DNA from: Tissierellales bacterium
Lineage (GTDB): Bacteria; Bacillota; Clostridia; Tissierellales; Sedimentibacteraceae
Assembly: GCA_018433765.1 (NCBI GenBank)
Contig: JAHDQO010000004.1
Span: 310,001-374,000 of the forward strand
DNA length: 64,000 nucleotides
Direction: 5' to 3'
The notes under the pieces: generated by a model
The model's input: the letters and a program-made list of their open reading frames with translations, nothing else
The model's database searches: none
What the model was told of the DNA's origin: nothing
Part shown: piece by piece, positions 4,333 through 50,702 of the stretch
Numbering within the stretch: position 1 is the first letter of the stretch
Layout of the letters: every line of letters starts with the position of its first letter
Program-made: the position numbers and the translations under genes

Positions 4333-4347
4333 GTTTTATAATAAAAG

Positions 4348-4384
4348 GCAGAGAATTAATGATTTTTAATTCTCTGCTTTTTTT
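4348..4384 (+). terminator. Rho-independent terminator
   Basis: GCAGAGAATTAA (4348-4359) pairs perfectly with TTAATTCTCTGC (4366-4377), followed by seven T residues. It ends the isomerase transcript. The same 12-base left arm recurs in the hairpin at 12362-12391, at the other end of the downstream gene cluster. Confidence 0.9.
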
Positions 4385-4470: not shown

Positions 4471-4497
4471 TTGACTTATCTGCAAAATTTGTATAAT
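4471..4497 (+). promoter_or_regulatory. Candidate sigma-A promoter of the cyclase cluster
   Basis: TTGACT (4471-4476) and TATAAT (4492-4497) are separated by 15 bases, about 100 bases before the ECF-transporter start. The spacing is slightly short for sigma-A. No FMN riboswitch-like conserved core is visible in the leader. Confidence 0.5.
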
Positions 4498-4595
4498 ATT
4501 GTCATGGAAAATATTATAAGCAATATTTGTAAAATAATGTTTATAGAACAAATGATTTAGCTTTAATATAAAAAAAAGAAAGATAGGTGAACATA

Positions 4596-5270
4596 ATGGA
4601 ACAACAAACAAAAAAAGTAAATGTGAGTTTAAAAATGAGAAAAATGATGGGAATTGGAATGATGAGTGCTATTGCTATTATAACTGTGGCTATGTTAAGA
4701 ATTCCCCTTGTATTGTTTTTAAAATATGAACCTAAGGATGTAGTTATTATTATAGGTGGATTCTTGTACGGACCTTTATCGGCATTTGCTATATCATCTA
4801 TATCATCTATAGTTGAAATGGTAACTGTGAGTGATACAGGAATAATTGGTTGTATAATGAATATTATTTCAAGCTGTTCTTTTGCATGTATAGCAGCACT
4901 TATATATAAGAAACATAAGACATTAAAAAGTGCAATTATAGGTATGGTGATTGGTTGTGCTTTGATGTCAATTTTAATGATATTATGGAATTATATAGTT
5001 ACTCCTATATTCTTAGGTTTTCCGAGAGAAGCTGTGGTAGAAATGTTAATACCTGTTTTCTTACCATTTAATTTAATAAAAGGTAGTCTTAACATTGCAA
5101 TAACTTTACTATTGTATAAGCCAATAGTTAATGGATTACGCAGAGCAAATCTATTACCAGAAGTAGATGATAAGATAAGTAGTAAAAGAAATAAAGGATC
5201 ATTAATAGGCTTATTCTTATTAATAATAACTATTGTTATTGTACTGCTATTATATACAGATATTTTATAA
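4596..5270 (+). CDS. ECF transporter S component, RibU-like
   Basis: Integral membrane substrate-binding subunit of an energy-coupling-factor importer, 224 aa with about six membrane segments. The segment LKYEPKDVVIIIGGFLYGPLSAF near residues 45-70 matches the RibU-type pattern (D then GG-FlyGP), pointing to riboflavin or a related vitamin. An extra C-terminal hydrophobic helix (residues about 205-222) follows a basic linker. The shared energising module (EcfA1, EcfA2, EcfT) is not in the window. ATG 4596 is chosen because the Shine-Dalgarno (ATAGGTG) overlaps an earlier in-frame start. It is the first gene after the terminator at 4384 and is 77 bp before the first radical SAM gene, so it may supply that cluster. 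Specificity is inferred only. Confidence 0.75.
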   Translation: MEQQTKKVNVSLKMRKMMGIGMMSAIAIITVAMLRIPLVLFLKYEPKDVVIIIGGFLYGPLSAFAISSISSIVEMVTVSDTGIIGCIMNIISSCSFACIAALIYKKHKTLKSAIIGMVIGCALMSILMILWNYIVTPIFLGFPREAVVEMLIPVFLPFNLIKGSLNIAITLLLYKPIVNGLRRANLLPEVDDKISSKRNKGSLIGLFLLIITIVIVLLLYTDIL

Positions 5271-5347
5271 ATACTTTTTATATGAAATTTAATATCTGTA
5301 AAAATTCATTAATTCAATAATGAAATTATATTTATAGGAGGAGAATC

Positions 5348-6673
5348 ATGAAAGTTAAATTGATAGCACCTAAATGTGATTGGGGTTCAGCAACTAATAA
5401 ATATCCTCCATATGTTTTGGCAACTTTAGCTGGACTTACTCCCGATGATATTGATGTGGTGATTCAAGATCAAAACATTGAAGAAATAGATTATGATGAG
5501 CCAGTTGATTTAGTAGGGATTACTGTTATTGTTCATACAGCAAAGAATGCATTTAAAATAGGTGATGAATTCAGAAAAAGAGGGATCACTACAGTTATGG
5601 GCGGTGTTTTTGTTGAAGCATGTCCAAATGAATGTCTTAAACATGCTGATTCAGTTGTTTTGTGTGAAGTAGAGGAAATGTGGAGTGATATTATAAATGA
5701 ATTATTTAGTGGAAACTATAAGAAAATATATAATTCAGATGAACGGCCTGAAATTAAAGGATTGCCTTTGCCAAGACATGATTTATTAAATCAAAATAAA
5801 TATTTAACTAATAATCTTGTAATGATTTCAAAAGGATGCTTAAATAGGTGTCATTTTTGTACTGGGGGAGTTCATTGGAAAGGACAAGTAAAGACTAGAA
5901 ATATTGAGGATATTATAAAGGAAATTAAAGTTTTAGATTCTAGTCAACCTTATATATTCTTAGACGATAATTTAATATGGAATCCTGAATATGCAAAAGA
6001 AGTGTTTAGAGCATTAATACCATTAAAAATAAAATGGATTTGTAGTGGTGCTTGCGTTGATTCAGTAGACGATAAAGAATTGATACGTTTAGCAAAAGAT
6101 AGTGGTTGTCTTGCAATGCTTTTAGGATTTGAGACAGTAAATGAAAAAACTTTAAAAAGGAATGGAAAGGGATTTAATAAAGTTGATAATTATAAAAAAA
6201 CCATAGAAAATTTTCATGATGTTGGTATAGCTGTTCAAGGGTCTTTTATCTTCGGTTTGGACGGAGATGATATTAATACTATAGTAGATACTGTTAAATT
6301 TATTGAACAATCGCAATTAGATATGTTAACGCTCAATATGCTATATCCCTATCCAGGAACTCCATTTAGAAAAAAATTAATAAATGAAAATAGATTAATA
6401 ATAGACGATAATGAATGGGACAATTTTACATATAATAGAATAATGTTTATACCTAAAAACATGTCTATAGATGAATTAGACAGAGGATTTAAATGGGCTA
6501 CGATAAAATTGGCAAATTCAGAGGAGTGCTCAAAAAGAATCGCACGTGCAGTTAAATATGATAGAGCACCTGAGTATATTTTTAAACAAAACATGCAGTT
6601 TAGTAGACATGTACGTAAAATGCATGGTAAATGGAATGAGTCAGAGTTAAATAAATTAATTAATAAAATTTAA
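5348..6673 (+). CDS. B12-binding-domain radical SAM enzyme (copy 1)
   Basis: A 441-aa class-B-like radical SAM protein. Residues 1-130 form a Rossmann-like cobalamin-binding domain (VDLVGITVIVHTA, VMGGVF), without the His-on DxHxxG motif. The radical SAM core follows, with the iron-sulfur ligands C164, C168 and C171 in SKGCLNRCHFC, and later YPYPGTPFR. Such enzymes methylate unactivated carbons or rearrange small molecules, using S-adenosylmethionine and often cobalamin. The substrate is unknown. GGAGGAG precedes the ATG. A close paralogue lies at 11039-12337; the two agree at well over half of positions by eye and bracket the cyclase, methyltransferase, isomerase and LuxS-like genes. Confidence 0.85.
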   Translation: MKVKLIAPKCDWGSATNKYPPYVLATLAGLTPDDIDVVIQDQNIEEIDYDEPVDLVGITVIVHTAKNAFKIGDEFRKRGITTVMGGVFVEACPNECLKHADSVVLCEVEEMWSDIINELFSGNYKKIYNSDERPEIKGLPLPRHDLLNQNKYLTNNLVMISKGCLNRCHFCTGGVHWKGQVKTRNIEDIIKEIKVLDSSQPYIFLDDNLIWNPEYAKEVFRALIPLKIKWICSGACVDSVDDKELIRLAKDSGCLAMLLGFETVNEKTLKRNGKGFNKVDNYKKTIENFHDVGIAVQGSFIFGLDGDDINTIVDTVKFIEQSQLDMLTLNMLYPYPGTPFRKKLINENRLIIDDNEWDNFTYNRIMFIPKNMSIDELDRGFKWATIKLANSEECSKRIARAVKYDRAPEYIFKQNMQFSRHVRKMHGKWNESELNKLINKI

Positions 6674-6708
6674 CAATCATATTCCGAATAATTGTCTAAA
6701 GAAACTAA

Positions 6709-6772
6709 TTTATACATTTGTTTGATTTAAGCAGATCAATACAATAATGCAAATAAAGGGTAAATGTATAAA
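6709..6772 (+). other. Stem-loop-forming inverted repeat inside the cluster
   Basis: TTTATACATTT (6709-6719) and AAATGTATAAA (6762-6772) are perfect 11-base complements 42 bases apart, in the 160-bp gap between the first radical SAM gene and the cyclase. AAGGGT and ACCCTT near 6757 and 6787 offer a competing pairing. It may be a processing or attenuation structure. Confidence 0.35.
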
Positions 6773-6833
6773 ATTATTAAAACATAACCCTTGATTTTTA
6801 ATATGTAATTTATAATAGGAGGTGTTGTTTAAT

Positions 6834-7952
6834 ATGAGTTACTTGAAAAAGAGCTGGAATGTTGTGCATAATAAAACTGTTGAGTATGCAATTTATAACA
6901 GTGAAGATATTTTTAATCCGGAAAACGATATAATGTTAATTGATTCTGACATAGATGGAAGTAATAGGTTTGTAGTTGTAGATCAATTTGTTTATGATAT
7001 ATATAATAAACAAATTGAAAATTATTTTGAATCAAATAATATAAATTATAAAATAGTACCTTTTGAAAGTAGTGAAAAAAATAAAAACATAGAAAATTAT
7101 ATTAAACTTTTCAAACAATTAGACGAATTCCCTATAAATCGTAGAAATGAACCTATAATAGCTATTGGAGGTGGAGTTGTTACAGATGTTATTGGTTTTG
7201 TTTCAAGTTGTTATAGGAGAGGTATACCACATATAAAAATACCTACTACTTTAATGGGGTATATTGATGCATCAATAGGAATAAAAACAGGTATAAATTT
7301 TGATTCTTATAAAAATCGCATGGGAAGTTTTGAGCCTCCTAAGTATGTAATACTAGACAAATATTTTTTATTAACTTTACCTAAGAGGCATATATTAAAT
7401 GGTGTTGGTGAGATTTTAAAGATTGCAGTTATTAAAAATCATCATTTGTTTGAGTTGTTAGAAATGTATGGTACAGAATGTATAGAATCTAAATTTCAAG
7501 ATGAAATAGGAATGAATATATTAAATATTTCTATAGAGGATATGATTGAAGAATTACAGCCTAACTTATATGAAAATAATCTTGAAAGATGTGTAGACTT
7601 CGGACATACCTTTAGTCCAGCTTTAGAAATGAAAGATATAAGAAATTTACTGCATGGAGAAGCTGTTTGCATTGATATTGTTTTTTCAACCATACTATCA
7701 AGGGTGCATTCTTTAATAACTAAATCGGAGGAAGAGAAAGTAATAGATTTAGTAAAAAAATTAGAATTACCCTATTATAGTTCTGTTATAACTCCAGAGC
7801 TATTTTGGGAAAGTATCATAGAAAGGACTCATCATAGAGATGGGATGCAAAGAATTCCTTTACCAACTGATATAGGTGAGTATTGTTTTGTAAATGATAT
7901 AAAATATAACGAACTAGTTGAAGCTTGTAAAATTCTTAATTCATATAAATAA
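6834..7952 (+). CDS. Sugar-phosphate cyclase, dehydroquinate synthase superfamily (sedoheptulose-7-phosphate cyclase type)
   Basis: A 372-aa NAD- and zinc-dependent cyclase. The NAD loop is GGGVVTDVIGF (residues 112-122). The zinc ligands of dehydroquinate synthase are conserved as E193, H258 and H274. The substrate region differs from true AroB: IDASIGIKTGINF with KNRMGSFEPPK replaces the GGKTAVN type, and the helix after the metal histidine reads GHTFSPALE, not GHTFGHAIE. From memory these features are shared with 2-epi-5-epi-valiolone-synthase-like enzymes and EboD-type proteins, which cyclise sedoheptulose 7-phosphate. The exact substrate is not provable here. ATG 6834 fits AGGAGGTG upstream. 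No shikimate genes are adjacent. Confidence 0.8.
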   Translation: MSYLKKSWNVVHNKTVEYAIYNSEDIFNPENDIMLIDSDIDGSNRFVVVDQFVYDIYNKQIENYFESNNINYKIVPFESSEKNKNIENYIKLFKQLDEFPINRRNEPIIAIGGGVVTDVIGFVSSCYRRGIPHIKIPTTLMGYIDASIGIKTGINFDSYKNRMGSFEPPKYVILDKYFLLTLPKRHILNGVGEILKIAVIKNHHLFELLEMYGTECIESKFQDEIGMNILNISIEDMIEELQPNLYENNLERCVDFGHTFSPALEMKDIRNLLHGEAVCIDIVFSTILSRVHSLITKSEEEKVIDLVKKLELPYYSSVITPELFWESIIERTHHRDGMQRIPLPTDIGEYCFVNDIKYNELVEACKILNSYK

Positions 7953-8028
7953 AAAGCTTGTTTTCGAACGGTTACTTATATTAATATTTCTTGTCTTTTA
8001 AAAACTAGAAATGGAGTGAATTTAAAAT

Positions 8029-9201
8029 ATGAATATTAAAGAAATTGATTTATTTGAAAAATTTAAATGTAGATTAAATAAAGAGTTATATGACATGGTT
8101 TTTATTAATCCACAAAAAGTTGTTTTAATAGGCGAAGAAAATCTAATAGAGTTATTTAGTAATATTTATAAGAGTAAAGGTGGCATGATAGAATATGTTT
8201 ACGGATATAAGATAAATGATATTAAAAATGATATTTTTAGTATATATAATGTAATTGATAATACTATAAATAAAATAAATAAAAATACTCCTTTAATAAT
8301 TTTAGGAGCATATTATACTTCCTTTTTTATACAGCTTAAATCTATGGGATTTAATAATATATTTTCTTTTCTAACAGAGGATATATCTAATATTGACAAC
8401 TATTTTAGGATGGTAGAGCATAAAGATAAAATTATGAAAATGTATAATTTATTAGAAGATTTAACATCAAAAAAAGTAATTGAAAATGTATTTATGGCTA
8501 GAATTTATGATGATTTAAGATATATAGGTGACATACAGGATAGAAATTTAGATAATGAATATTTTGATAAGAATATAATAAAGCTTTTAGATAATGAGAT
8601 TTTTATTGATGCAGGAGCATATAATGGCGATACGTTATACAATTTTCTAAAAAATACAAATTCACATTTTAAGGATGCATACTTATTTGAGCCGGATAGA
8701 AACAATTTTACTATGTTAGACAATCAGTTATCTAATAAATTGCTTGTATCAAATATTGGTGAGAAATTAGATTTTATAGAATTAGGAGAAACAACGGATA
8801 ATATTCATATTTATAATTCGGGAGTTTACAGTAAAGCTTCAAAACTTAATTTTACTGGTAATCTTAGTAAAGCGTCTCACATTACAGGAAATTTGGATAT
8901 GTCTTTAAATAATAGAAGCTTTAGTGATGATATTATTGATGTTGTGAGATTAGATGATGTTCTCGAAGATAAAGAAGTTACTTATATAAAGATGGATATA
9001 GAAGGAAGTGAATATGAAGCTATAAAAGGAGCTAGAAAAATAATAACTAGATGCAAACCGAAATTAGCTATATGCATATATCACAATGAAAACCATTTAT
9101 GGGACATCCCTATATTGATTAATGATTTAAATCCAAATTATAAAATTTATATTAGACATTACAATTCAAATTTATGGGATACAATATGCTATGCTATATA
9201 A
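8029..9201 (+). CDS. FkbM family methyltransferase with N-terminal Rossmann-like domain
   Basis: A 390-aa protein. Residues 28-120 resemble a nucleotide-binding Rossmann fold (VVLIGEENL; LIILGAYYTSF), as seen in front of some sugar-modifying enzymes. Residues 185-360 are the FkbM S-adenosylmethionine-dependent O-methyltransferase: IFIDAGAYNGDT is the SAM-binding loop (residues 191-202), EPD at 221-223 is the acidic residue after strand two, and VRLDDVLED followed by IKMDIEGSEYEAIKGA (320-335) is the FkbM signature. FkbM members methylate hydroxyls of sugars and macrolides, so a hydroxyl on the cyclase product is a reasonable target. GGAGTGA precedes the ATG. It lies 76 bp after the cyclase gene. 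Confidence 0.82.
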   Translation: MNIKEIDLFEKFKCRLNKELYDMVFINPQKVVLIGEENLIELFSNIYKSKGGMIEYVYGYKINDIKNDIFSIYNVIDNTINKINKNTPLIILGAYYTSFFIQLKSMGFNNIFSFLTEDISNIDNYFRMVEHKDKIMKMYNLLEDLTSKKVIENVFMARIYDDLRYIGDIQDRNLDNEYFDKNIIKLLDNEIFIDAGAYNGDTLYNFLKNTNSHFKDAYLFEPDRNNFTMLDNQLSNKLLVSNIGEKLDFIELGETTDNIHIYNSGVYSKASKLNFTGNLSKASHITGNLDMSLNNRSFSDDIIDVVRLDDVLEDKEVTYIKMDIEGSEYEAIKGARKIITRCKPKLAICIYHNENHLWDIPILINDLNPNYKIYIRHYNSNLWDTICYAI

Positions 9202-9237
9202 ATTTAAAATTAAAAAAATTAAGAGGAGGCACATGAA

Positions 9238-10467
9238 ATGTTTAAATTAAGTTATAGTACTAATGGATTGACTGAATTATCATTAAAAGAAGCTATGTAT
9301 GAAGTTGAAAAAGCTAAATTTGAAGGGATTGAATTATCATTTCAGAAACATGAATTTAATCCATTTGAACTTAAAAAAGAAGATATTTTAAATATAAGAA
9401 AACTATTTGAAAATAGCTCTGTAAAGCCAGTATGTATATCAACTGCTACTACTTTTTTTCTATCTGATATAGCACATGAGCCATCTTTGCTTTCATTAGA
9501 TTCTTCTAAAAGAAAAGAGCGTATAAATCTAATAAAAAGAGGGATTGAAATTGCAAAACTCATTGGTATTTCTGTTGTTAGTTTTCAAAGTGGATATCTA
9601 AGAGAAGAGCATATAAATAATCCATGTATAAATCCACGAGAATTATTAATCTCTGGAATAAAAGAATGTTTGGAAGATATTGGTGATGTTATATTGGTTA
9701 TAGAACCAGAACCGGGAATGTATATAGAAACATTAGAGGATGCTGTAAAACTTATTAAAGAAATAGATAATCCCAAATTTAGGTTGCATATCGATATTTG
9801 TCATGCTTATTGTACAGAAAAAAATTATATTCAATCTATGAAAAAACATATTAATTATACTGAATATATGCATCTTGCAGATATTAAAGATGGATATAAT
9901 TTAAAATTCATGGTATCTACCTTAGAAGATATTAAAGATTTGAAATTAGATTTTAATTTTGCTTCTTATTTAATTAATGTTAAAGATGATAATAATTACA
10001 TATTTGTTTCTTCTAGTCAACGCATCTATTTTTATAAAAAGCTATCTGAATTACAAATGGACAATATAAAACAATGTTTAAACTCAGATAACGACACAAC
10101 AAAATTAGAATTTGTACCAATGAAGAATCTAGATAATTTAATTAGAATGGAGGATTTTGATATTGAAATAAAGGCATATTTGGATTCAATATCAGGTACT
10201 AATCTAAATGTACTTCAAAGAGCAATACCTATATTAAAATACATTAGAAATGAAATTGTGTCACAGCCTATTTGCAATACAATAAACGGAAAAGTTCATT
10301 ATCATGAGGTTCCGGGTAATGGTAAAATAGATTTTACCAAAGTATTTAAAATGTTAAATGATAGTTATGATAAATATATTACAGTAGAATTATATAATCA
10401 TTCAAGCATTTGGAAAACTGTACTTTATGATAGCAGGAAGTATTTGTTAAATTGTATTAATAAATAA
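9238..10467 (+). CDS. Sugar phosphate isomerase/epimerase-like TIM barrel with large insertion
   Basis: A 409-aa xylose-isomerase-like (AP endonuclease 2 superfamily) protein. Candidate metal ligands are E156 in IEPEPG, D186 and H189 in HIDICH, H212 in MHLAD, H356 in HYHEVPGNGKIDF and E384 in VELYNH, in the order expected for this fold. Between about residues 221 and 350 an unrecognised segment of some 130 residues separates the MHLAD strand from the HYHEVPGNG strand, which is normally only a short loop away; usual family members are near 280 aa. A strong GAGGAGG precedes the ATG. In ebo clusters an EboE barrel of this superfamily accompanies the EboD cyclase, which suggests partnership with the upstream cyclase. 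The reaction is unknown. Confidence 0.75.
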   Translation: MFKLSYSTNGLTELSLKEAMYEVEKAKFEGIELSFQKHEFNPFELKKEDILNIRKLFENSSVKPVCISTATTFFLSDIAHEPSLLSLDSSKRKERINLIKRGIEIAKLIGISVVSFQSGYLREEHINNPCINPRELLISGIKECLEDIGDVILVIEPEPGMYIETLEDAVKLIKEIDNPKFRLHIDICHAYCTEKNYIQSMKKHINYTEYMHLADIKDGYNLKFMVSTLEDIKDLKLDFNFASYLINVKDDNNYIFVSSSQRIYFYKKLSELQMDNIKQCLNSDNDTTKLEFVPMKNLDNLIRMEDFDIEIKAYLDSISGTNLNVLQRAIPILKYIRNEIVSQPICNTINGKVHYHEVPGNGKIDFTKVFKMLNDSYDKYITVELYNHSSIWKTVLYDSRKYLLNCINK

Positions 10468-10513
10468 ATTATTATTCATAATAAAATAATTTTGAAGAAA
10501 GGAAGAATAACAA

Positions 10514-10993
10514 ATGATAGATTTGGCGAAAGCTGGTTGGAATTTAAATGAAATTGGAAATATAGATCATCGTAAAGTTAAAGCACCATATATTAGAATG
10601 ATTGGATCTAAAGAAGGAGAACACGGTGATTATGTTTTTTCATATGATCTCAGGTTTACACAACCAAATATAGAGTATATGGATACAAAAGTTTTACACT
10701 CGCTAGAACATTTCATGCTTGTAGGATTTGAAAAATATTTTGGAGATCATTTTGTAAGTATTTCACCTATGGGATGTCAAACAGGGTTTTATTTAATACT
10801 TATTAATGAATACGATTTTGATGTTATTTCGCAATCTTTTAAAAAAGTCATGGAAGATATTGTGAAAGCTGATTCGGTTCCACTAAGTACCGAAGTGAAT
10901 TGTGGACAAGCTAAACATCATACTTTAAAAGAAGTAAAGGAATTAGTTAAACTTATTTTAGCAAATGAAAAAAATTGGGCAAAAGTTTTTTAA
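10514..10993 (+). CDS. LuxS-like S-ribosylhomocysteine lyase family protein
   Basis: A 159-aa LuxS-family metalloenzyme. The zinc-site pattern HSLEH (H62, E65, H66) and the distant NCGQAKHHT (C130) are intact, as are the catalytic Cys in SPMGCQTGFY (C88), the substrate-side DHRKVKAP (H19) and DLRFTQPN (R47). In typical LuxS the catalytic loop is MGCRTGFY; here Gln replaces that Arg, and the C-terminus is short. Authentic LuxS splits S-ribosylhomocysteine into homocysteine and the AI-2 precursor, recycling the by-product of methylation. Its place between an isomerase and a radical SAM gene, away from methionine-cycle genes, suggests a cluster-specific role: either salvage for the methyltransferases or a related isomerisation on a different substrate. 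Confidence 0.8.
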   Translation: MIDLAKAGWNLNEIGNIDHRKVKAPYIRMIGSKEGEHGDYVFSYDLRFTQPNIEYMDTKVLHSLEHFMLVGFEKYFGDHFVSISPMGCQTGFYLILINEYDFDVISQSFKKVMEDIVKADSVPLSTEVNCGQAKHHTLKEVKELVKLILANEKNWAKVF

Positions 10994-11038
10994 AATGTTT
11001 AAGAAATTGATTTTTAATTAATAAAGAGGAGGATTTCT

Positions 11039-12337
11039 ATGAAACTTAAGCTTATAGCACCAAAGTGCAATGTAACACAAGCAACAAATTGTTTTCCACC
11101 ATACGTGTTAGCAGTTTTAGCTGGATTGACTCCAAGTGATATACAGGTAAGTATACAAGATGAAAATATAGAAAAAATAGATTATGATGAACAAGTTGAC
11201 TTAGTTGGTATAACGGTTATTGTTCAAACTGCCAATAATGCATTTCGAATTGCTGACGAGTATAGAAGAAGAGGTATTACAGTTTTCATGGGGGGAATTT
11301 TTCCTGAAGCTTGTCCAGAACAATGTTTAGAACATGCTGATTCTGTTGTTTTAAGTGAGGTAGAAGAAATATGGGAAGATATTTTGGAAGATTTTAAAAG
11401 TGGAACATATAAAAAAGTATATAAAGCAGAAAACAGACCTGAAATTAAAGGGCTACCTCTACCTAGACATGATTTGCTGAAAAATAAAAAAGGATACTTA
11501 ACAAATAATCTGATAATGACATCAAAAGGTTGTATAAACAGATGTGAATTTTGTTCTGCGGGTAAACACTGGCAAGGACAAGTTAAAACTAAAGATATAG
11601 AAGATATAATAGCGGAAATTAAGTTGTTAGATATGAATGAACCTATACTTTTTATTGATGATAACTTAATTTGGAATCCTGAATATGCAAAATCTCTATT
11701 TAGATCAATTATTCCTCTTAGAATTAAGTGGGTTTGCTGTGGTGCTTGTGTTGATTCTATTGAAGATATTGAACTGGTTGAATTAGCTAAACAGAGTGGT
11801 TGCATTTCAACTCTTCTTGGTTTTGAAACAATAAATGAAAGAGCACTTAAAAAATCTCGAAAAGGATTTAATAAAGTTGAAAAATATAAAAATACTATTG
11901 ATTTATTTCATAGTGTCGGAATTGCAGTTCAAGGAACATTTATATTTGGTTTAGATGAAGATAATACTGAATCATTTAAAACGACAGTTAAATTTATTGA
12001 AGATTCTGAATTAGATATGGTTACTTTTAATTTGTTATATCCTTATCCAGGCACTCCATTTAGAGAAAGGCTAAAAAGAGAAAATAGGTTAATTGAAGAT
12101 AAAAATGAATGGGAAAACTTTAGCTATAAACATCTTATGTTTCATCCAAAAAATATGTCTTATGAAGAGCTGTGTGAGAATTTTGAATGGATATCTAAGC
12201 GGTTGGCAAGTAAAAAACTTTGTGCAAAGAGAATTTATGAAGCAGTACTTAATAATAGAGCACCAGAACATGTATTTCATCAAAATATTAATCTAAGAAA
12301 ACATGTAGCAGCAATGTATGGAGGAGAATGGGAATAA
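11039..12337 (+). CDS. B12-binding-domain radical SAM enzyme (copy 2)
   Basis: A 432-aa paralogue of the protein at 5348-6673, with the same architecture: N-terminal cobalamin-binding-like domain (residues 1-130, VGITVIVQTA and FMGGIFPEAC), then radical SAM core with C165, C169 and C172 in SKGCINRCEFC, then YPYPGTPFRERL. The two copies match from the first residues (MKLKLIAPKC against MKVKLIAPKC) to the C-terminal RAPEHVFHQN against RAPEYIFKQN, so they came from one duplication. Different residues right after the cluster cysteines (SAGKHW against TGGVHW) may mean different substrates. AGAGGAGG precedes the ATG. It is the last gene before the terminator at 12362. Confidence 0.85.
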   Translation: MKLKLIAPKCNVTQATNCFPPYVLAVLAGLTPSDIQVSIQDENIEKIDYDEQVDLVGITVIVQTANNAFRIADEYRRRGITVFMGGIFPEACPEQCLEHADSVVLSEVEEIWEDILEDFKSGTYKKVYKAENRPEIKGLPLPRHDLLKNKKGYLTNNLIMTSKGCINRCEFCSAGKHWQGQVKTKDIEDIIAEIKLLDMNEPILFIDDNLIWNPEYAKSLFRSIIPLRIKWVCCGACVDSIEDIELVELAKQSGCISTLLGFETINERALKKSRKGFNKVEKYKNTIDLFHSVGIAVQGTFIFGLDEDNTESFKTTVKFIEDSELDMVTFNLLYPYPGTPFRERLKRENRLIEDKNEWENFSYKHLMFHPKNMSYEELCENFEWISKRLASKKLCAKRIYEAVLNNRAPEHVFHQNINLRKHVAAMYGGEWE

Positions 12338-12361
12338 ATAATATATAGTTTTATGAAAAAA

Positions 12362-12400
12362 GCAGAGAATTAATATTTTTTAATTTTCTGCTTAATTTTA
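12362..12400 (+). terminator. Terminator-like hairpin ending the cluster
   Basis: GCAGAGAATTAA (12362-12373) pairs with TTAATTTTCTGC (12380-12391) with one G-T wobble, followed by an interrupted T-rich tail. The left arm is identical to that of the terminator at 4348-4377, upstream of the cluster. Confidence 0.7.
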
Positions 12401-29036: not shown

Positions 29037-30167
29037 ATGAAAAGTAAATGTAATAAGCAAATAGCAGTAATATTTATAATATCAACAATACTTCTGTCAT
29101 TACTTAATATTATAGTTACAGATAAGGAATTTTCAGAATTAGAAAATAGATATTTACAAAAGAAGCCTAGTCTTACTTATAAGAAATTATTATCAGGTGA
29201 ATTTTCAGAAGATTTTGAAAAATATATTACAGATCAGTTCCCATTAAGAAATTGGTGGATAAAGATAAAATCAGATGTGGAAAGAGCAGTATTAAAAAAA
29301 GATAATAATGGAATTTATTTTGGGAAAGATGGGTATCTATTTGAAATGTATAATAAACCTGAAAAAACCTTTTATAAAAATATTGAATACATTAATTCTT
29401 TTATTGACAAAACAAATATTAATGTTTCTATAATGGCAGTACCAAATTCATTTCAAATATACAGTGAAAAGCTGCCTCTTTTTGCGAACCCTTATGACCA
29501 AGCAAAAGTATTAAATGATTTAAAAAATAATTTAGTATCAGAGGCAGGTTTTATTGATTTAATAGGCGTATTACAAGATAAAAAAGATGAGTATATTTAT
29601 TTTAAAACAGATCATCATTGGACGATGTTAGGCGCGTATTATGGATATTTAGAATACTGTAAAGTTAATAATATTGAAGCTGTGAGTTTAGAAGAATTTC
29701 AAATAATAGAAAAAAGTAATGAATTTTATGGTACTTATTATTCTAAAGCTAATGGTACAAGAGTAAAACCAGATAAGTTAGAAATATTGGAGCTTATCAA
29801 GAGCAAATATAGTTATTTAGTAAATTATATATATGAAGATGAACAATCAGATAATTTTTATGATGATGAATATTTAAGTAAGAAAGATAAGTATTCTTAT
29901 TTCTTTGGAGGAAATCATTCATTAATAACTATAAAAACAACAAACAAAAACGGAAAAAAATTATTAGTTATAAAAGATTCATATGCAAATGCAATGATTC
30001 CCTTACTAGCTAATAATTTTGAAGAAATACATGTTGTAGACCTCAGATATTATAAATACAATATTTATGACTATATAAAAGAAAACAATATTAATGAGGG
30101 ATTAGTATTATACAACATATCTAATTTTAATAATGATACAGGATTAGCGATCTTAAATTATTATTGA
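29037..30167 (+). CDS. DHHW family protein (AlgJ/AlgX-like acyltransferase)
   Basis: A 376-aa protein with an N-terminal membrane anchor (residues about 8-27) and an extracellular SGNH-like domain. The diagnostic TDHHWTMLGAYYGY is near residue 195, and the nucleophile Ser probably lies in KDSYANAMIPLL near 318. DHHW proteins act with MBOAT partners to acetylate exopolysaccharides in Clostridia. It begins 10 bp after the MBOAT stop, with GAGGTAAAAATATG as start context, and its 3' end overlaps the convergent gene at 30161 by 7 bases. Confidence 0.85.
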   Translation: MKSKCNKQIAVIFIISTILLSLLNIIVTDKEFSELENRYLQKKPSLTYKKLLSGEFSEDFEKYITDQFPLRNWWIKIKSDVERAVLKKDNNGIYFGKDGYLFEMYNKPEKTFYKNIEYINSFIDKTNINVSIMAVPNSFQIYSEKLPLFANPYDQAKVLNDLKNNLVSEAGFIDLIGVLQDKKDEYIYFKTDHHWTMLGAYYGYLEYCKVNNIEAVSLEEFQIIEKSNEFYGTYYSKANGTRVKPDKLEILELIKSKYSYLVNYIYEDEQSDNFYDDEYLSKKDKYSYFFGGNHSLITIKTTNKNGKKLLVIKDSYANAMIPLLANNFEEIHVVDLRYYKYNIYDYIKENNINEGLVLYNISNFNNDTGLAILNYY

Positions 30168-31117
30168 TAATTAACGATTTCTAGTCCTGTGATATCACCT
30201 GTATCTTTATAGATTGTTGCTCCATCTTTGTTTCTTAGTTTTATATCTATATTTGAATTAATACTTTCGGTAATTCTCCTTGTCATATTTCCTTGAAGAG
30301 GAGCTTGTAAAAAACCTCCGCTGTTTTTATCAGCAGTTATTTGCAGTGTATATTTTGAATTCTTTAAAGAAACACAAACTTCTTTTTCTAGTATTATTAG
30401 ATTGCTGATTTTACTGTTGTTATAAGTTGCAAATCTATATTCCATACCCCTGATGTTAAGTATACAAATAAAACCTGTGAATGTGCAAAATAAAAAAGGT
30501 ATTTCAGCAATTGAACACATTAAAGAAACAGATTCATCAGAAAAATGATTAGATTGAATCCATATATATTTTTTAGGAAATGATGCTCCCCAATCTTTTT
30601 CTATATATCCTTTACCACCATCAAAGTTAATTTCTTTATTATTAATTTCCAGATTTCCACTTAATAAATGATTCATGCTTATAACTTCATGAAAGCACTC
30701 CATAAAAGGAAAATACCCAAAGAAACCCATTGCTCCGGGAGAAAAAACAGATTTGACTATTTGTATCATATCATTAAAGTACACAACACCGTTTGCACTA
30801 ATATTTTCGTCATTAATATCCAGTTTAATACCATGTTTCGAAAATTTGTTGCTGTCTATAGTTATTGATAGACTATCATCTATAGGAGTAAAACTGTCTG
30901 CTGAGTATTCTACATAATTTGTTTTTCCATTACTGCCGTTTATTATTTGAATAAAACTGTGTGCTTTTTCATTATTATCTGGATAAGATATGCCTGGTAT
31001 AAAAGAATAAACAGATTTTTTATCTTTAGAAACAAGCTTATAATACCATCCTTCAAAGTATTTTGAGTTTCTTTTTCCTTGAAAGTTTTCTCCATTGAAT
31101 TTTTCATATTTTAACAT
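30161..31117 (-). CDS. Tocopherol cyclase-like protein
   Basis: A 318-aa soluble protein of the tocopherol-cyclase-like family. The N-terminal KYFEGWYYKLVSKDKKSVYSFIPGISY and the central GGKGYIEKDWGASFPKKYIWIQSNHF are the family's two conserved stretches. Plant VTE1 closes the chromanol ring of tocopherol; bacterial relatives are mostly uncharacterised and a tocopherol pathway is not expected here, so the name reflects fold and not function. Its ATG overlaps the stop of the upstream FAD-Rieske gene by one base (TAATG), so the two proteins are translationally coupled and may act on one lipid-like or quinone-like substrate. Confidence 0.75.
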   Translation of the reverse strand: MLKYEKFNGENFQGKRNSKYFEGWYYKLVSKDKKSVYSFIPGISYPDNNEKAHSFIQIINGSNGKTNYVEYSADSFTPIDDSLSITIDSNKFSKHGIKLDINDENISANGVVYFNDMIQIVKSVFSPGAMGFFGYFPFMECFHEVISMNHLLSGNLEINNKEINFDGGKGYIEKDWGASFPKKYIWIQSNHFSDESVSLMCSIAEIPFLFCTFTGFICILNIRGMEYRFATYNNSKISNLIILEKEVCVSLKNSKYTLQITADKNSGGFLQAPLQGNMTRRITESINSNIDIKLRNKDGATIYKDTGDITGLEIVNYQ

Positions 31118-32652
31118 TAATCATTATCTCCTTGATCAATAATTACTTTTTCTAAAGGTTCTACAGCAGGTCCTTCTATAACTTTTCCATTAATATCAAA
31201 TCTTGATCCATGACATTGACAATCCCAAGTTTTTTCAGCTGTATTAAACTTTAATTGACAGCCTAAATGTGTGCATACAGGTATAATACCATAACATTTT
31301 TCATCTTCGTCTTTATATACACCTATTTTATGTCCGTCATATTCAACTTCTTTTCCTTCTCCTGTTTTAATGTCTTTAATATCTCTTAAAGGTATGGTTA
31401 GTACTCTTTTTGCTAAACCGCCTGCCGCACTAAAACTGTTAGAGAAGAATTCAGATGCTGATTCTTTAGGAGTAAATCTAAGAGGATTATAAATATCTGA
31501 ATTCACATTATCATTGTTTAATATTTTATCTCTTATTATTTGAGCTGCAACTGTACTTCCTGTCATACCCCATTTGCCGAATCCTGTTATAACATATAAG
31601 TTAGGAACATTTTTAGTCATTTGACCTATATATGGAACTTTGTCAAGAGGCATACAATCCTGAGTAGACCATCTAGATATAATTTTAGGATTTTTAAAAT
31701 GTTCTTTTGCAAAAGTTTCAAGTTCAAGATAAGATTCTCTTTCATCTTTTTTCAATCCTGTCTTGTGATTTCCTCCACCTAGAATCAAGATATTTTCATC
31801 ATCACTACCAAAATGGTATCTCATAGAATATATAGGGTCATTTATGTTTATATACATTCCACCAAAAGGCTTATCTTCTGACTTTATTGCAAGTATATAA
31901 GACTTTTCAGCATGTAAACGCATATAATACATCCCATAATTTTTTAAGAATGGAAAATGGGTAGCTACTACTACAATATCACTTTTGATGTCACCTCTAT
32001 TGGTAGTTATAGAAAAAGGTGATTTATCACCTTTAATTTCCAAAGCTCTAGTATTCTCGTATATGCTTATTCCTGAATCTGAAACTAAAGCTGATAAGCC
32101 GTATAAATATTTTATAGGGTGAAATTGAGCTTGACTTTCAATTTTTATAGCTCCTTCTATTTCAAATGGAAGTTCTGAGCTGTTAACAAAAGATGATTCA
32201 ATGTTTAACTCTTCATATGCACGTAATTCTTTTTCTAAAGCACGGACTTCTTCCTTTCTAGTTGTATAAACGTATGCAGGTTGAGTTTTAAAGTCACAAG
32301 ATATATTATTTTTTTCCACAGTGTGCTTTATTAAATTAATAGCATTATTATTTGAAACAGCATATTGCATAGCATAGTCTTTACCAAATGAATCAATTAA
32401 ATAATCATATTTTAACCCATGTTGCATTGATATTTTAGCTGAAGTATATCCTGTTGTTCCTAGACCTATCTTAGTTGCTTCTATAATACCTACCTTTAAT
32501 CCGTTTTCTTTAAGCAGGAATGCTGTAGTCAATCCTGCTATTCCTGCACCTATAATTAAGACATCAAAATTGTCACCATCAGAAACAGTAGTGTACTCTT
32601 GTTTTCTCTGTACGTTTAACCAGTAAGATTTATTTAAATAATTTTCTTCCAT
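31117..32652 (-). CDS. FAD-dependent oxidoreductase with C-terminal Rieske domain
   Basis: A 511-aa fusion. Residues about 25-370 are a DadA-type FAD oxidoreductase, with the dinucleotide loop VLIIGAGIAGLTTAFLL (GxGxxG) and a C-terminal VITGFGKWGMTGS flavin contact. Residues about 420-505 are a Rieske [2Fe-2S] domain with ligands in CTHLGC and CQCHGSRF (Cys-x-His and Cys-x-x-His pairs). Such fusions occur in many Firmicutes and pass electrons from an amine or hydroxyl substrate to the cluster. GAGG precedes the ATG (AAGAGGTTGAT). It is coupled by a one-base overlap to the tocopherol-cyclase-like gene. Confidence 0.88.
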   Translation of the reverse strand: MEENYLNKSYWLNVQRKQEYTTVSDGDNFDVLIIGAGIAGLTTAFLLKENGLKVGIIEATKIGLGTTGYTSAKISMQHGLKYDYLIDSFGKDYAMQYAVSNNNAINLIKHTVEKNNISCDFKTQPAYVYTTRKEEVRALEKELRAYEELNIESSFVNSSELPFEIEGAIKIESQAQFHPIKYLYGLSALVSDSGISIYENTRALEIKGDKSPFSITTNRGDIKSDIVVVATHFPFLKNYGMYYMRLHAEKSYILAIKSEDKPFGGMYININDPIYSMRYHFGSDDENILILGGGNHKTGLKKDERESYLELETFAKEHFKNPKIISRWSTQDCMPLDKVPYIGQMTKNVPNLYVITGFGKWGMTGSTVAAQIIRDKILNNDNVNSDIYNPLRFTPKESASEFFSNSFSAAGGLAKRVLTIPLRDIKDIKTGEGKEVEYDGHKIGVYKDEDEKCYGIIPVCTHLGCQLKFNTAEKTWDCQCHGSRFDINGKVIEGPAVEPLEKVIIDQGDND

Positions 32653-37233: not shown

Positions 37234-38253
37234 TTATCTTATAGTTTGCTTTGCTAATAAGTCTTTAGGTTTATATAAGAAAGACAAGCTTCCTAATAAT
37301 ATAAGTAAATAACATGATATAAAACGCCACACAAGCATAATACTAATAATAATTTCTGAACTAGCTACATTTTTAAATAATAGAATAAACGTACCTTCTA
37401 TTCCGCCAGTTCCTCCGGGTGTAGGTATAACAAATCCAAACAAGTAGATACATGAAACCATAAAAACTATGGATAAAGTATTACATTCTATACTAAATCC
37501 TTTAAATATATAGAATACACATAAGAAAAGGAAGAAAAATGATACTATTTGAACTAATATTAATTTAAGTATAAAGAACCTATTTTTTATAATTTCTTGA
37601 TTACATCTTGCAAAATCATCAATTTGTTTGTTAACTTTGCTATTTATTGATTCATAGTTTCTTATAACTTTTATCTTAACGAGATATTTTATGATAAACT
37701 TAGATACTTTCTTACACCATTTTGGTTTGAACATGGCAAAAAGCTGAAATGCTATACCTACAATTTGAGCTAAAATATTAATAAAAATCAGTAAAATTAT
37801 TAAATTTTTATCGTGATTGGGTAAATAGTTTAAAGCAATAATAGAAAACAATATTAAAACTAATTGATATAATATATTTCTAGTTATTATTATATTTGAT
37901 GTTTTACTTATAGGTATACCGCCTTTATTATAAAGATAAAGCTGATAAGGAAATCCACCAGTGAAAAAAGGAGTAATATTGTTAAACACATATAAGCCCA
38001 TAACAGCTTTGCTAACTAATCCTACTGATACTTTTTCATAAAGTCGTTTTGTCATTAAATAAAGAATAACTATGTCAGTAAAAACATAAATCAATATACA
38101 TAACAATGCATAGGTAAGCCATTTATAGTTTATGCCTTTTAAATAACTTTCTATAACAGCGATATTATGTTTTGAAAAAATATAATAATAAATAGCAGCT
38201 ATACAGATTAAAGTAATACTTATATTTAAAATTGTTTTTTTATTCTTTTTCAC
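37234..38253 (-). CDS. UPF0104 family membrane protein (lysylphosphatidylglycerol synthase TM-region/flippase-like)
   Basis: A 339-aa integral membrane protein with about eight helices. The conserved family stretches are NNITPFFTGGFPYQLYLYNKGG near residue 90 and FGFVIPTPGGTGGIEGTFILLF near 280. Members include the flippase half of MprF and AglD-like proteins. No synthase domain is attached. Its start overlaps the upstream glycosyltransferase gene by 14 bases, so translational coupling is likely and it may move the glycolipid made by that enzyme. Confidence 0.8.
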   Translation of the reverse strand: MKKNKKTILNISITLICIAAIYYYIFSKHNIAVIESYLKGINYKWLTYALLCILIYVFTDIVILYLMTKRLYEKVSVGLVSKAVMGLYVFNNITPFFTGGFPYQLYLYNKGGIPISKTSNIIITRNILYQLVLILFSIIALNYLPNHDKNLIILLIFINILAQIVGIAFQLFAMFKPKWCKKVSKFIIKYLVKIKVIRNYESINSKVNKQIDDFARCNQEIIKNRFFILKLILVQIVSFFFLFLCVFYIFKGFSIECNTLSIVFMVSCIYLFGFVIPTPGGTGGIEGTFILLFKNVASSEIIISIMLVWRFISCYLLILLGSLSFLYKPKDLLAKQTIR

Positions 38254-39361
38254 ATAAAGCTCCTTTATATTCAGTAACTATATTTGTAAAATCAAGACAG
38301 GCATTAGGTTTAGCATATCTTTTAGATATAATTTGCATATCTTCAATTCGCTCCTTATCTTCTAATAAGTCTTTAAGATGAATGGAGATATTTTTATTAT
38401 TTGCACAAACTGCTAGTCCTTTATTTAATAAGAATGCCGCATTTTCTTCTTCTTGACCGGGAATAGGATTGACAATAATCATAGGTAATTGTTTAATAAT
38501 TGCTTCTGTAATAGTTAAACCTCCCGGTTTAGTGATTAAAATATCGGCCGCATCCATATATAAAAATATTCTTTCTGTGAAACCAAGTATTCTAATAGGG
38601 TTATCATAACAACTGCTAATTTCCTTTAATTTATTTTTAAGTTTTGCATCTTTACCTGCGATTACAACAATTTGTACTTCTAAAGCTGACTCAATAATAT
38701 TTTTCAAAATATCTTGAATCTTTCCAGCTCCAAAACTACCCCCAACCAATAATACAGTTGTTATATTTTTTTCTAAATCTAGTTTTTGGCGTGCCTCTAT
38801 TTTACTGTTTTTATTTGTACAACTACAAGATGATGGGATTCCAAAAGTGTGTATTTTAAAATCGGGAATTCCTTTTCCAAGCAGACGAAGACGCATAAAA
38901 TTACTTGATACGATATATTTATTTACTCCTGGAGAAATCCACCCTTCATGAAAATCAAAATCAGTTATTAATACAAATACATCGTAATTGAAATTATATT
39001 TATTTTTTAAATCTGTTATTTCTGAAACAATAAATGGGTGAAGACATACAACAATATTTGGGGCATATTCTTTTATTAATTTTTTTGATTTAGTATTAGA
39101 AATAAGTTTAGATTTATGATTTTTTTTGGGTATCATATTTCTTACATTATATGACGCCCTATATAGTTGTGGTATTTTTTTAGTACAAGCTTCATATGCA
39201 GCAGCGGTTAATTTTGAAAGACCATGATTAATATAATCAATATAATCTATGACAGATGTGTTTATATCATAATTATTTTTTTCTATATAGTTTTTTAGAG
39301 CATTAGCAGCTGCATTATGACCACCACCAATATTAACTGTTAAAATTAATAGATTAATCAA
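38240..39361 (-). CDS. MGDG synthase-like glycosyltransferase (diacylglycerol glycosyltransferase)
   Basis: A 373-aa GT28/GT-B enzyme. The N-terminal TVNIGGGHNAAANALKNYI (residues about 8-26) is the MGDG-synthase acceptor-side signature and the C-terminal ILITKPGGLTITEAIIKQLPMIIVNPIPGQEEENA is the sugar-nucleotide-binding region. Relatives such as UgtP add sugars from UDP-glucose or UDP-galactose to diacylglycerol. It should act at the inner membrane face to make glycolipids or lipoteichoic-acid anchors. GGAGG precedes the ATG. It is followed with overlap by a flippase-like gene. Confidence 0.85.
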   Translation of the reverse strand: MINLLILTVNIGGGHNAAANALKNYIEKNNYDINTSVIDYIDYINHGLSKLTAAAYEACTKKIPQLYRASYNVRNMIPKKNHKSKLISNTKSKKLIKEYAPNIVVCLHPFIVSEITDLKNKYNFNYDVFVLITDFDFHEGWISPGVNKYIVSSNFMRLRLLGKGIPDFKIHTFGIPSSCSCTNKNSKIEARQKLDLEKNITTVLLVGGSFGAGKIQDILKNIIESALEVQIVVIAGKDAKLKNKLKEISSCYDNPIRILGFTERIFLYMDAADILITKPGGLTITEAIIKQLPMIIVNPIPGQEEENAAFLLNKGLAVCANNKNISIHLKDLLEDKERIEDMQIISKRYAKPNACLDFTNIVTEYKGALCEKE

Positions 39362-46623: not shown

Positions 46624-46724
46624 AATAATACTAAATAATAGTTATAAAACTATTGACTTAAATTAGATAAATATGATAAACTTGATAAAAATATGTAAGT
46701 CAAAATCTGTACTAAAGGTTTTTG

Positions 46725-46812
46725 AAAAAGGCAAACTAATTGAAAGATTAGGACGCAAAATCACAGGTCTAAGGTTTAAACTATGATGGCTGGATTACCA
46801 AAGGTCTTTTTT
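46725..46812 (+). ncRNA. c-di-GMP-I (GEMM) riboswitch
   Basis: GEMM-I blocks in order: AAAAAGGCAAACTAATTGAAAG with a GAAA tetraloop stem CTAAT/ATTAG, then GGACGCAAAATCACAGG, then CTAAGG, and ATGATGGCTGGATTACC. P1 pairs AAAAAG before GGCAAAC with CTTTTT at 46806-46811. A terminator at 46892-46927 could be its expression platform. The downstream gene on this strand is the AtoE-type transporter at 47319; no cyclic-di-GMP enzyme gene is next to it, though a degenerate HD-GYP regulator is elsewhere in the window. Confidence 0.85.
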
Positions 46813-50156: not shown

Positions 50157-50444
50157 AATGTATTCCTCCGTAGTGCTGAAATTTAAAAAGTAGTATTAAT
50201 ATAAACTTATTTATTATATATAAGATACAATATTTTATATGTAAAATCAACTAATTTAGCATTTATACTTATTATGCTTAATTAACGCCTATTATATTAA
50301 ATTTGTTTAGTTAATATATAGATAGTGGTAAAGTAAAATTAAAGTAGTTATACATAAATTACCACAAAAAAACATTTGACAAAAGATTAATTATTACATA
50401 TAATTTATAAAAAATTGATGAATTAATTATAAACTGTGACAGGA

Positions 50445-50702
50445 AGAGTATGTATACTAAAAAGTTTTAGCGAGTCGGTTATGGTGAAAGTCCGGCACTA
50501 AGAGTATATTGAAGAACATCCTTGAGTTTCCAACCGAAATTTTATTAAAGTAGACTTGGACGTAATTTAGCACGTTACAGCTAATAGGTATCGAAGTAAT
50601 TCTGTACTGAAAGAGATAACTATTTTTATATAGTTAATTAAGGTGGCACCGTGAATAATACCTTTCACCCTTAAATGCAATTTAAGGATGAAAGGTTTTT
50701 TT
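50445..50702 (+). promoter_or_regulatory. T-box leader with Asn specifier
   Basis: The T-box sequence AAGGTGGCACCGTGAATAAT (50640-50659) precedes a terminator whose arms CCTTTCACCCTTAAAT and TTTAAGGATGAAAGG pair, ending in seven T residues at 50696-50702. The Stem I landmarks GAAAGTCCGGCAC and TTGAGTTTCCAACCGAAA are present. The specifier region GAAGAACATCC (50511-50521) has AAC (Asn) at 50515-50517; an overlapping GAA (Glu) is at 50514-50516. It controls aspS-gatCAB in response to uncharged tRNA. Confidence 0.88.

Follow-up and report, generated by a model that had tools for sequence, protein, structure and literature searches.

A clostridial gene run joins a sedoheptulose-7-phosphate cyclase to a LuxS paralogue with altered pocket residues and a pair of radical SAM proteins

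Overview

The window analysed here is a stretch of 64,000 nucleotides from a Tissierellales bacterium (GenBank assembly GCA_018433765.1, 4.19 Mb in 38 contigs; contig JAHDQO010000004.1, positions 310,001 to 374,000). It carries an operon-like run of seven same-strand genes between two terminator-like hairpins, at 4343-4382 and 12360-12393, which encode an energy-coupling factor (ECF) transporter S component, a first radical S-adenosylmethionine (SAM) protein, a sugar phosphate cyclase, an FkbM-family methyltransferase, a TIM-barrel isomerase, a LuxS homologue and a second radical SAM protein, in this order. The run itself is real. The assignment of the cyclase as a sedoheptulose-7-phosphate cyclase (SH7PC) with the residue pattern of 2-epi-5-epi-valiolone synthase (EEVS) is solid on residues and tree, and an altered pocket of the LuxS homologue is well supported by its sequence; the remainder of the scheme we infer from these parts. 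On balance, we consider the run to be a biosynthetic operon for a decorated C7-cyclitol, in which an EEVS-type cyclase would supply the ring and a LuxS protein would have been recruited to epimerise or dehydrate the ketocyclitol. The features of the run, with window coordinates, are as follows.

4343-4382, + strand: terminator-like hairpin at the end of the upstream gene (17 pairs, loop of 6, T-run)
4471-4499, + strand: promoter-like site ahead of the operon (consensus scan, 9/12)
4587-5270, + strand: ECF transporter S component, RibU-like (ECF_trnsprt, 74.3 bits)
5348-6673, + strand: radical SAM protein 1 with an N-terminal B12-binding-like domain; CX3CX2C at 5837-5860 (Radical_SAM, 66.9 bits)
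6834-7952, + strand: sedoheptulose-7-phosphate cyclase, assigned to the EEVS type; E193/H258/H274 metal triad and D255, P262, H334 fingerprint (alignment, tree)
8029-9201, + strand: FkbM-family methyltransferase with an N-terminal extension of ~190 residues (Methyltransf_21, 63.2 bits)
9238-10467, + strand: xylose-isomerase-like TIM barrel, 409 aa, with an insert of ~120 residues (AP_endonuc_2, 109.6 bits)
10514-10993, + strand: LuxS paralogue (Pfam LuxS, 128.7 bits; residue alignment)
11039-12337, + strand: radical SAM protein 2 with a B12-binding domain; CX3CX2C at 11531-11554 (Radical_SAM 61.3, B12-binding 43.3, DUF4070 25.0 bits)
12360-12393, + strand: terminator-like hairpin at the operon end (14 pairs, loop of 6)

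The cyclase belongs to the C7-cyclitol type

The cyclase matches the Pfam families DHQ_synthase (123.9 bits) and DHQS_C (80 bits). An AGGAGG stretch lies just upstream of ATG 6834 and the alternative start, GTG 6822, falls inside it, so that ATG 6834 is the likelier start. With this start the residue numbers E193, H258 and H274 given in an earlier, sequence-only reading of this DNA are exact, and the three residues align to the metal triad. The closest solved structures are ValA, the EEVS of validamycin biosynthesis (310 bits), then 5tpr (226 bits) and then chains of 3-dehydroquinate synthase (DHQS) at no more than 159 bits. The database entry of 5tpr is named 3-dehydroquinate synthase, but we take this protein to be the desmethyl-4-deoxygadusol synthase (DDGS) of Anabaena variabilis.

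An alignment and a tree of 14 proteins, eight of SH7PC type including the window cyclase and six of DHQS type, were used for the assignment. At three discriminating sites, D/P/H is found in the window cyclase, in ValA and in the cyclases of A. vitis, R. rhizogenes and S. clavuligerus, while the Streptomyces NBC_00467 cyclase has D/P/R and the two DDGS-type rows (5tpr and Nostoc HK-01) have A/P/T. It is noted that the Nostoc HK-01 cyclase has an O-methyltransferase as its neighbour, with a D-alanine-D-alanine-ligase-type gene nearby. All six DHQS-type rows, among them the AroB encoded elsewhere in the same genome and a relative from a metagenome-assembled genome (MAG), carry N (Asn268) and H (His275) at the first two. 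The columns taken here to separate EEVS from DDGS hold D255 and H334 in the window cyclase, matching ValA, and A and T in the two DDGS-type rows; the use of two sites for that purpose is described in PMC4426668. In the tree, a group of the eight SH7PC rows, separate from the DHQS rows, is supported at 100/100. Inside this group the window cyclase groups with the DDGS rows at 82/83, yet its shortest path leads to ValA.

The cyclase scores 226.8 bits on the aroB model against a cut-off of 305, and its role as a second AroB is ruled out by the discriminating residues, D and P rather than N and H, together with the placement in the tree. The sequence-only reading had called it a sedoheptulose-7-phosphate-cyclase-type enzyme and had named a grouping with true 3-dehydroquinate synthases as evidence against its interpretation. 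Both the 100/100 support and the fingerprint residues bear out the cyclase assignment, and a grouping with DHQS was looked for and not seen. The product would be 2-epi-5-epi-valiolone or a close isomer.

The LuxS paralogue keeps the catalytic residues and has lost substrate-side residues

The genome carries two LuxS genes, and the copy outside the run scores higher (201 bits versus 128 for the operon copy). That other copy sits in the clostridial LuxS group and has Ser6-Phe7. The operon LuxS is identical to Halomonas LuxS in 66/148 columns and to the other LuxS of its own genome in 39/146. An alignment of 37 LuxS rows including that of the window, two of them identical, was used; 30 of the rows came from a search in which 155 of 391 genomes of the class matched above the cut-off. 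In the tree the operon LuxS falls with the Halomonas, Actinomyces, Anoxybacillus and H. pylori rows (98/95), outside the clostridial clade, on the longest end branch (2.18 versus a median of 0.21); a long-branch warning and a bootstrap that had not settled make its exact placement unsure.

H11, D37, R39, H54, E57, H58, C84 and C126 are kept in 37/37 rows, so that the metal ligands H54, H58 and C126 and the catalytic C84 and E57 of S-ribosylhomocysteine lyase are all present in the operon copy. In its own numbering R47, H62, E65, H66, C88 and C130 are retained, and I14, G15 and S82 occupy the sites of Ser6, Phe7 and Asp78. The substrate-side pair Ser6-Phe7 is found in 36/36 other rows and is Ile-Gly in the operon copy. 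The Asp78 site is Ser in the operon copy, Asp in 6 other rows and Tyr in 30; the Lys35 site is Ser, with Thr in 30 other rows, Lys in 4 and Asn in 2. Ser6, His11 and Arg39 are reported to be important for LuxS activity, and Asp76 of S. suis LuxS to contact the substrate, in PMC4618692. By position, judged from the distance to the catalytic cysteine, we take S. suis Asp76 to correspond to the Asp78 site. Compared with the LuxS lyase, of which the H. pylori and Halomonas type is closest, the operon copy thus shares the family match, the metal ligands, Cys84, Glu57, Arg39 and His11, and differs in the replaced Ser6, Phe7 and Asp78, in eight extra N-terminal residues and in its location in an operon with a cyclitol cyclase. 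The pattern points to catalysis kept and substrate changed, and the operon LuxS probably acts on a substrate other than S-ribosylhomocysteine.

An ordinary S-ribosylhomocysteine lyase could instead clear the S-adenosylhomocysteine (SAH) left by FkbM and the radical SAM proteins, or supply 4,5-dihydroxy-2,3-pentanedione, with no step on a cyclitol. The retention of all metal and acid-base residues would fit such a role, as would the presence of up to three SAM-consuming enzymes in the same operon, and the Lys35 and Asp78 sites vary in ordinary LuxS too, being Thr and Tyr in 30/30 clostridial rows. The change of Ser6-Phe7 to Ile-Gly, the very long branch and the second genomic LuxS with an intact Ser6-Phe7 argue against it, and the nucleosidase that makes the lyase substrate is not among the seven proteins. 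It should be mentioned that four proteins of the genome strongly match PNP_UDP_1, the family to which MTAN belongs, and a fifth does so weakly, and its SAH recycling probably needs no operon LuxS copy. We regard the ordinary lyase as rather improbable. The sequence-only reading had offered both by-product handling after methylation and a new isomerisation; the latter is favoured because the substrate-side residues are lost while the catalytic residues are kept, and because a better-scoring LuxS and the four PNP_UDP_1-family proteins are encoded elsewhere in the genome.

The radical SAM pair

Radical SAM proteins 1 and 2 share 65% identity over 428 residues and are sister rows at 100/100 in the tree. 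Both carry the CX3CX2C motif, as CLNRCHFC and CINRCEFC. The B12-binding Pfam domain scores 43.3 bits in radical SAM protein 2 and 28.6 in radical SAM protein 1, against a cut-off of 32.1, so that of the two B12 domains named in the sequence-only reading the second stands and the first falls below the threshold. The pair may use B12. DUF4070, matched in radical SAM protein 2, occurs in the hopanoid methylase HpnP as well.

By sequence, the closest solved chains of both proteins are MgmA (9ccb) and then AprD4 (6fd2). A fold search with a model of radical SAM protein 2, built from two sequences with a mean predicted local distance difference test score (pLDDT) of 56 and hence weak evidence, placed AprD4 first, with MgmA and TsrM also among the top matches. 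AprD4, MgmA and TsrM have the CX3CX2C motif and the domain order in common with the operon pair, but identity over the fold alignments is only 16-21%. AprD4 is not known to bind cobalamin. The pair could be read as cobalamin-free 1,2-diol dehydratases, or related AprD4-like enzymes, that deoxygenate the ring to a deoxycyclitol. AprD4 is the second-best solved sequence match of both proteins and the best by fold, with the weakness of the model already stated, and radical SAM protein 1 is below the B12-binding cut-off. Against this, the glutamine methylase MgmA is the better match by sequence, TsrM is among the top fold matches, radical SAM protein 2 is above the B12-binding cut-off with a DUF4070 match in addition, and no reductase such as AprD3 is found among the seven proteins. 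Deoxygenation by this pair appears unlikely, and methylation is the likelier activity. The sequence-only reading proposed a methylated cyclitol or related molecule; methylation of the product remains putative, the two closest solved relatives of the pair being the methylase MgmA and the non-methylating diol dehydratase AprD4.

A search with the radical SAM proteins at E <=1e-85 matched 3 of the 391 class genomes, namely the genome itself and two genomes of one other genus with one 40% match each. Within 17-18 kb around these two relatives, no cyclase, LuxS, FkbM or TIM-barrel match was found at 1e-5. As separate observations, a 40% relative of the pair in another class genome (locus L022, 744-15904; by eye) is clustered with methyltransferases, several radical SAM proteins and a UbiA-like prenyltransferase. 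One cluster on a Citrobacter portucalensis plasmid (locus L012, 10429-20886) combines a GH3-like protein and five radical SAM relatives of the window pair with a PAP2 phosphatase and an acetyltransferase.

Coherence of the run

The intergenic gaps are 77, 148, 76, 36, 46 and 45 bases in order, the second being 160 when the cyclase starts at 6834. Shine-Dalgarno-like stretches precede most of the seven genes (by eye), and all seven reading frames are intact and full-length. The six genes named in the sequence-only reading, on one strand with short gaps, are all present and Pfam agrees for each; the position 4471 at which that reading began is a promoter-like site ahead of an additional seventh gene, for the ECF S component (4587-5270), which opens the run. 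Promoter-like sites number 71 in the region versus a mean of 69.9 in shuffles, which makes the site at 4471 weak evidence alone; terminator-like sites number 3 versus 1.7 (sd 1.7). A chance origin of seven full-length family matches in one run is not plausible. The GC content, 0.269 in the run and 0.275 in the window, gives no sign of recent import, with which it is still compatible. Rfam scans of the window and the leader gave no match at the operon.

The genes might be neighbours that take part in no common pathway, with a LuxS relic and a sugar-modifying set brought under one promoter by accident, and the occurrence of the set in no second genome searched would agree with this. Such an arrangement is hard to reconcile with the short gaps, the Shine-Dalgarno-like stretches, the bounding terminator-like hairpins and the intact frames, with the retention of catalytic or metal residues in the proteins checked for them (cyclase, LuxS and radical SAM pair), and with the duplicated radical SAM genes that flank the remaining enzyme genes (cyclase, FkbM, TIM barrel and LuxS). 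We consider an accident of this kind very improbable. A phage or defence island was rejected as well: among the five proteins scanned, that is, all but radical SAM protein 2 and the ECF gene product, only FkbM matched PHROG, as a generic methyltransferase, and only radical SAM protein 1 matched PADLOC, weakly at 18.1 bits.

The TIM barrel, the methyltransferase and the S component

Candidate metal ligands of the TIM barrel are E156, D186/H189, H212 and E384, assigned by eye from an alignment to TM0416. The protein is below every curated equivalog cut-off, including those of 5-keto-L-gluconate epimerase (IolO, 54.6 versus 300) and inosose dehydratase (IolE, 35.3 versus 290), and relatives at E 1e-10 were found in none of 98 other class genomes. 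In the FkbM protein, whose domain is a typical one, the Methyltransf_21 match (cut-off 22.7) covers residues 194-353, with FIDAGAYNGDT at residue 192.

The ECF gene has an in-frame ATG nine bases past GTG 4587, and the nearest solved structures of its product are RibU. Another PF12822 gene of the genome scores better and has a flavin mononucleotide (FMN) riboswitch just upstream, and is the likelier RibU. The cargo of the operon S component is thus probably other than riboflavin; riboflavin was rejected since the FMN riboswitch belongs to that other gene (11 of 13 such loci scanned). The genome has thirteen ECF S-component matches in all (loci L061-L073), and 5 of the 11 scanned loci have FMN, THF, TPP or ZTP riboswitches.

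Proposed pathway

In the first step, well supported by sequence features, the cyclase would convert sedoheptulose 7-phosphate to 2-epi-5-epi-valiolone or a close isomer by the NAD- and metal-dependent chemistry of the DHQS superfamily. The second step would be LuxS-type chemistry on the resulting alpha-hydroxy ketone. Epimerisation and dehydration both can begin with proton removal next to a ketone. LuxS holds a ketol on its metal and Cys84 shifts the alpha proton to give an enediolate, after which beta-elimination can follow; in the lyase reaction, cleavage of the thioether comes after the 2-keto intermediate. The TIM-barrel superfamily includes inosose isomerases and dehydratases. As described in PMC3907816, the C2 proton is shifted by Cys84 of LuxS with the hydroxyls held by the metal, leading to a 2-keto intermediate. 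On a valiolone-type ketone, the same chemistry could result in epimerisation at C2, in removal of the C5 hydroxyl to give a valienone type, or in both, and acarbose biosynthesis likewise requires 2-epi-5-epi-valiolone to be epimerised and dehydrated (PMC9200736). The metal TIM barrel would take the other of the two steps; this division is proposed because both reactions can start by proton removal next to the ketone, as in LuxS. In a third step, the radical SAM pair and FkbM would modify the ring, C- and O-methylation being the most likely reactions. The ECF S component is a transporter part. With no kinase encoded in the operon, the intermediates would be unphosphorylated or a kinase would be supplied from elsewhere.

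Several points weigh against this pathway. The main weakness is that no second genome with the gene set was found in the searched data, which leaves it with no support from conservation. In acarbose biosynthesis, phosphorylation and epimerisation of 2-epi-5-epi-valiolone lead on to valienone 7-phosphate, the epimerisation and dehydration proceeding on the 7-phosphate by other enzymes (PMC9200736). A ROK gene lies beside the cyclase in the A. vitis, R. rhizogenes and S. clavuligerus clusters, while the operon has no ROK-type cyclitol kinase. The TIM barrel has no close relative among named cyclitol enzymes and only its superfamily match holds. The cyclase tree does not settle whether the EEVS or the DDGS rows are nearest to the window protein. 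The LuxS set is biased, 30 of the 37 rows being the 30 top-scoring loci with weaker paralogues left out.

Occurrence

The sequence-only reading had looked to conservation of the set in related genomes; searches at the level of family, order, class and phylum, the genome draws of which overlap, returned a single occurrence. The family search at 1e-40 (26 other genomes) gave three cyclase matches of 30-35% identity, all with DHQS residues. A cyclase of the operon type was absent from 248 other genomes of the order and 397 of the phylum at 1e-50, and from 390 others of the class at 1e-55. Taken literally, a set not found in related genomes is what the sequence-only reading had named as its first ground for refutation. 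Since even the cyclase was missing from those genomes at these thresholds, the result shows rarity rather than a lack of connection between the genes. A contig scan with six exact 8-residue peptides, blind to anything with none of the six, found one 35% relative with DHQS residues, and two viral contig scans by exact peptides found no match. In a phage search, 14 of 50,697 records matched, the best rows being 25-31% identical.

Among 72,556 plasmid records, 115 matched the cyclase, all at <60% identity. Of the plasmid matches listed and annotated, most outside the S. clavuligerus records are named dehydroquinate synthases; among those listed, Acetoanaerobium noterae and Aureibacter tunicatorum hold cyclase-like and radical SAM matches ~100 and 340 kb apart. 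Twelve loci were compared with the operon: five SH7PC plasmid neighbourhoods (A. vitis, R. rhizogenes, S. clavuligerus, Nostoc HK-01 and Streptomyces NBC_00467), the locus of the MAG relative (L016), and six loci holding radical SAM relatives, four on plasmids and two in genomes. Two different kinds of operon proteins were held by 0/12 loci at E 1e-5, while an own-genome stretch cut inside the FkbM gene showed all four kinds that it contained.

Comparison with known systems

The operon may be described as a variant of the EEVS-led C7-cyclitol clusters with LuxS, FkbM and two radical SAM enzymes as new parts. In the EEVS-led clusters (validamycin and acarbose; the A. vitis, R. rhizogenes and S. 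clavuligerus plasmids) a cyclase with the same three fingerprint residues is followed by tailoring genes. The A. vitis and R. rhizogenes clusters also have a TIM-barrel sugar isomerase near the cyclase, although these are not close to the operon protein (best pairwise E of 0.005 and 1.2). In contrast to these clusters, the seven operon genes include no ROK kinase, dehydrogenase, aminotransferase or glycosyltransferase, and have the two radical SAM enzymes, FkbM and LuxS instead.

The ebo operon (EboA-F) likewise has a non-DHQS sugar phosphate cyclase and a xylose-isomerase-like protein, according to PMC5133447. The link to ebo clusters drawn in the sequence-only reading is weak and an ebo operon was rejected: the TIM barrel reaches 14.3 bits with the EboE model, whose cut-off is 250, and no UbiA-like, metallohydrolase or phosphodiesterase match is found among the seven proteins. 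In open-licence PubMed Central literature, no described cluster with this gene set was found among the matches listed, and none of 19 papers joined 'sedoheptulose 7-phosphate cyclase' with LuxS or radical SAM.

Other features of the window

Elsewhere in the window, a Tocopherol_cycl-family protein (30161-31117, - strand; 93 bits) adjoins a FAD oxidoreductase with a Rieske domain (31117-32652, - strand), an unexpected pair in a clostridial genome. An LPG_synthase_TM protein overlaps a glycosyltransferase of the MGDG-synthase type at 37234-39361 (- strand). A c-di-GMP-I riboswitch (46720-46802, + strand) and a T-box leader (50427-50675, + strand) are both above the Rfam gathering score.

Implications

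C7-cyclitols are the core of acarbose and validamycin. A more specific proposal, which we hold as tentative and somewhat doubtful, is that a metal-dependent ketocyclitol epimerase/dehydratase has arisen by recruitment of the LuxS fold and acts beside a duplicated B12 radical SAM pair on an EEVS-derived ring, forming an anaerobic route to a new methylated C7-cyclitol. If this is true, LuxS would have gained a new substrate, and an enzyme of signalling and recycling would have been turned to biosynthesis as a new epimerase or dehydratase.

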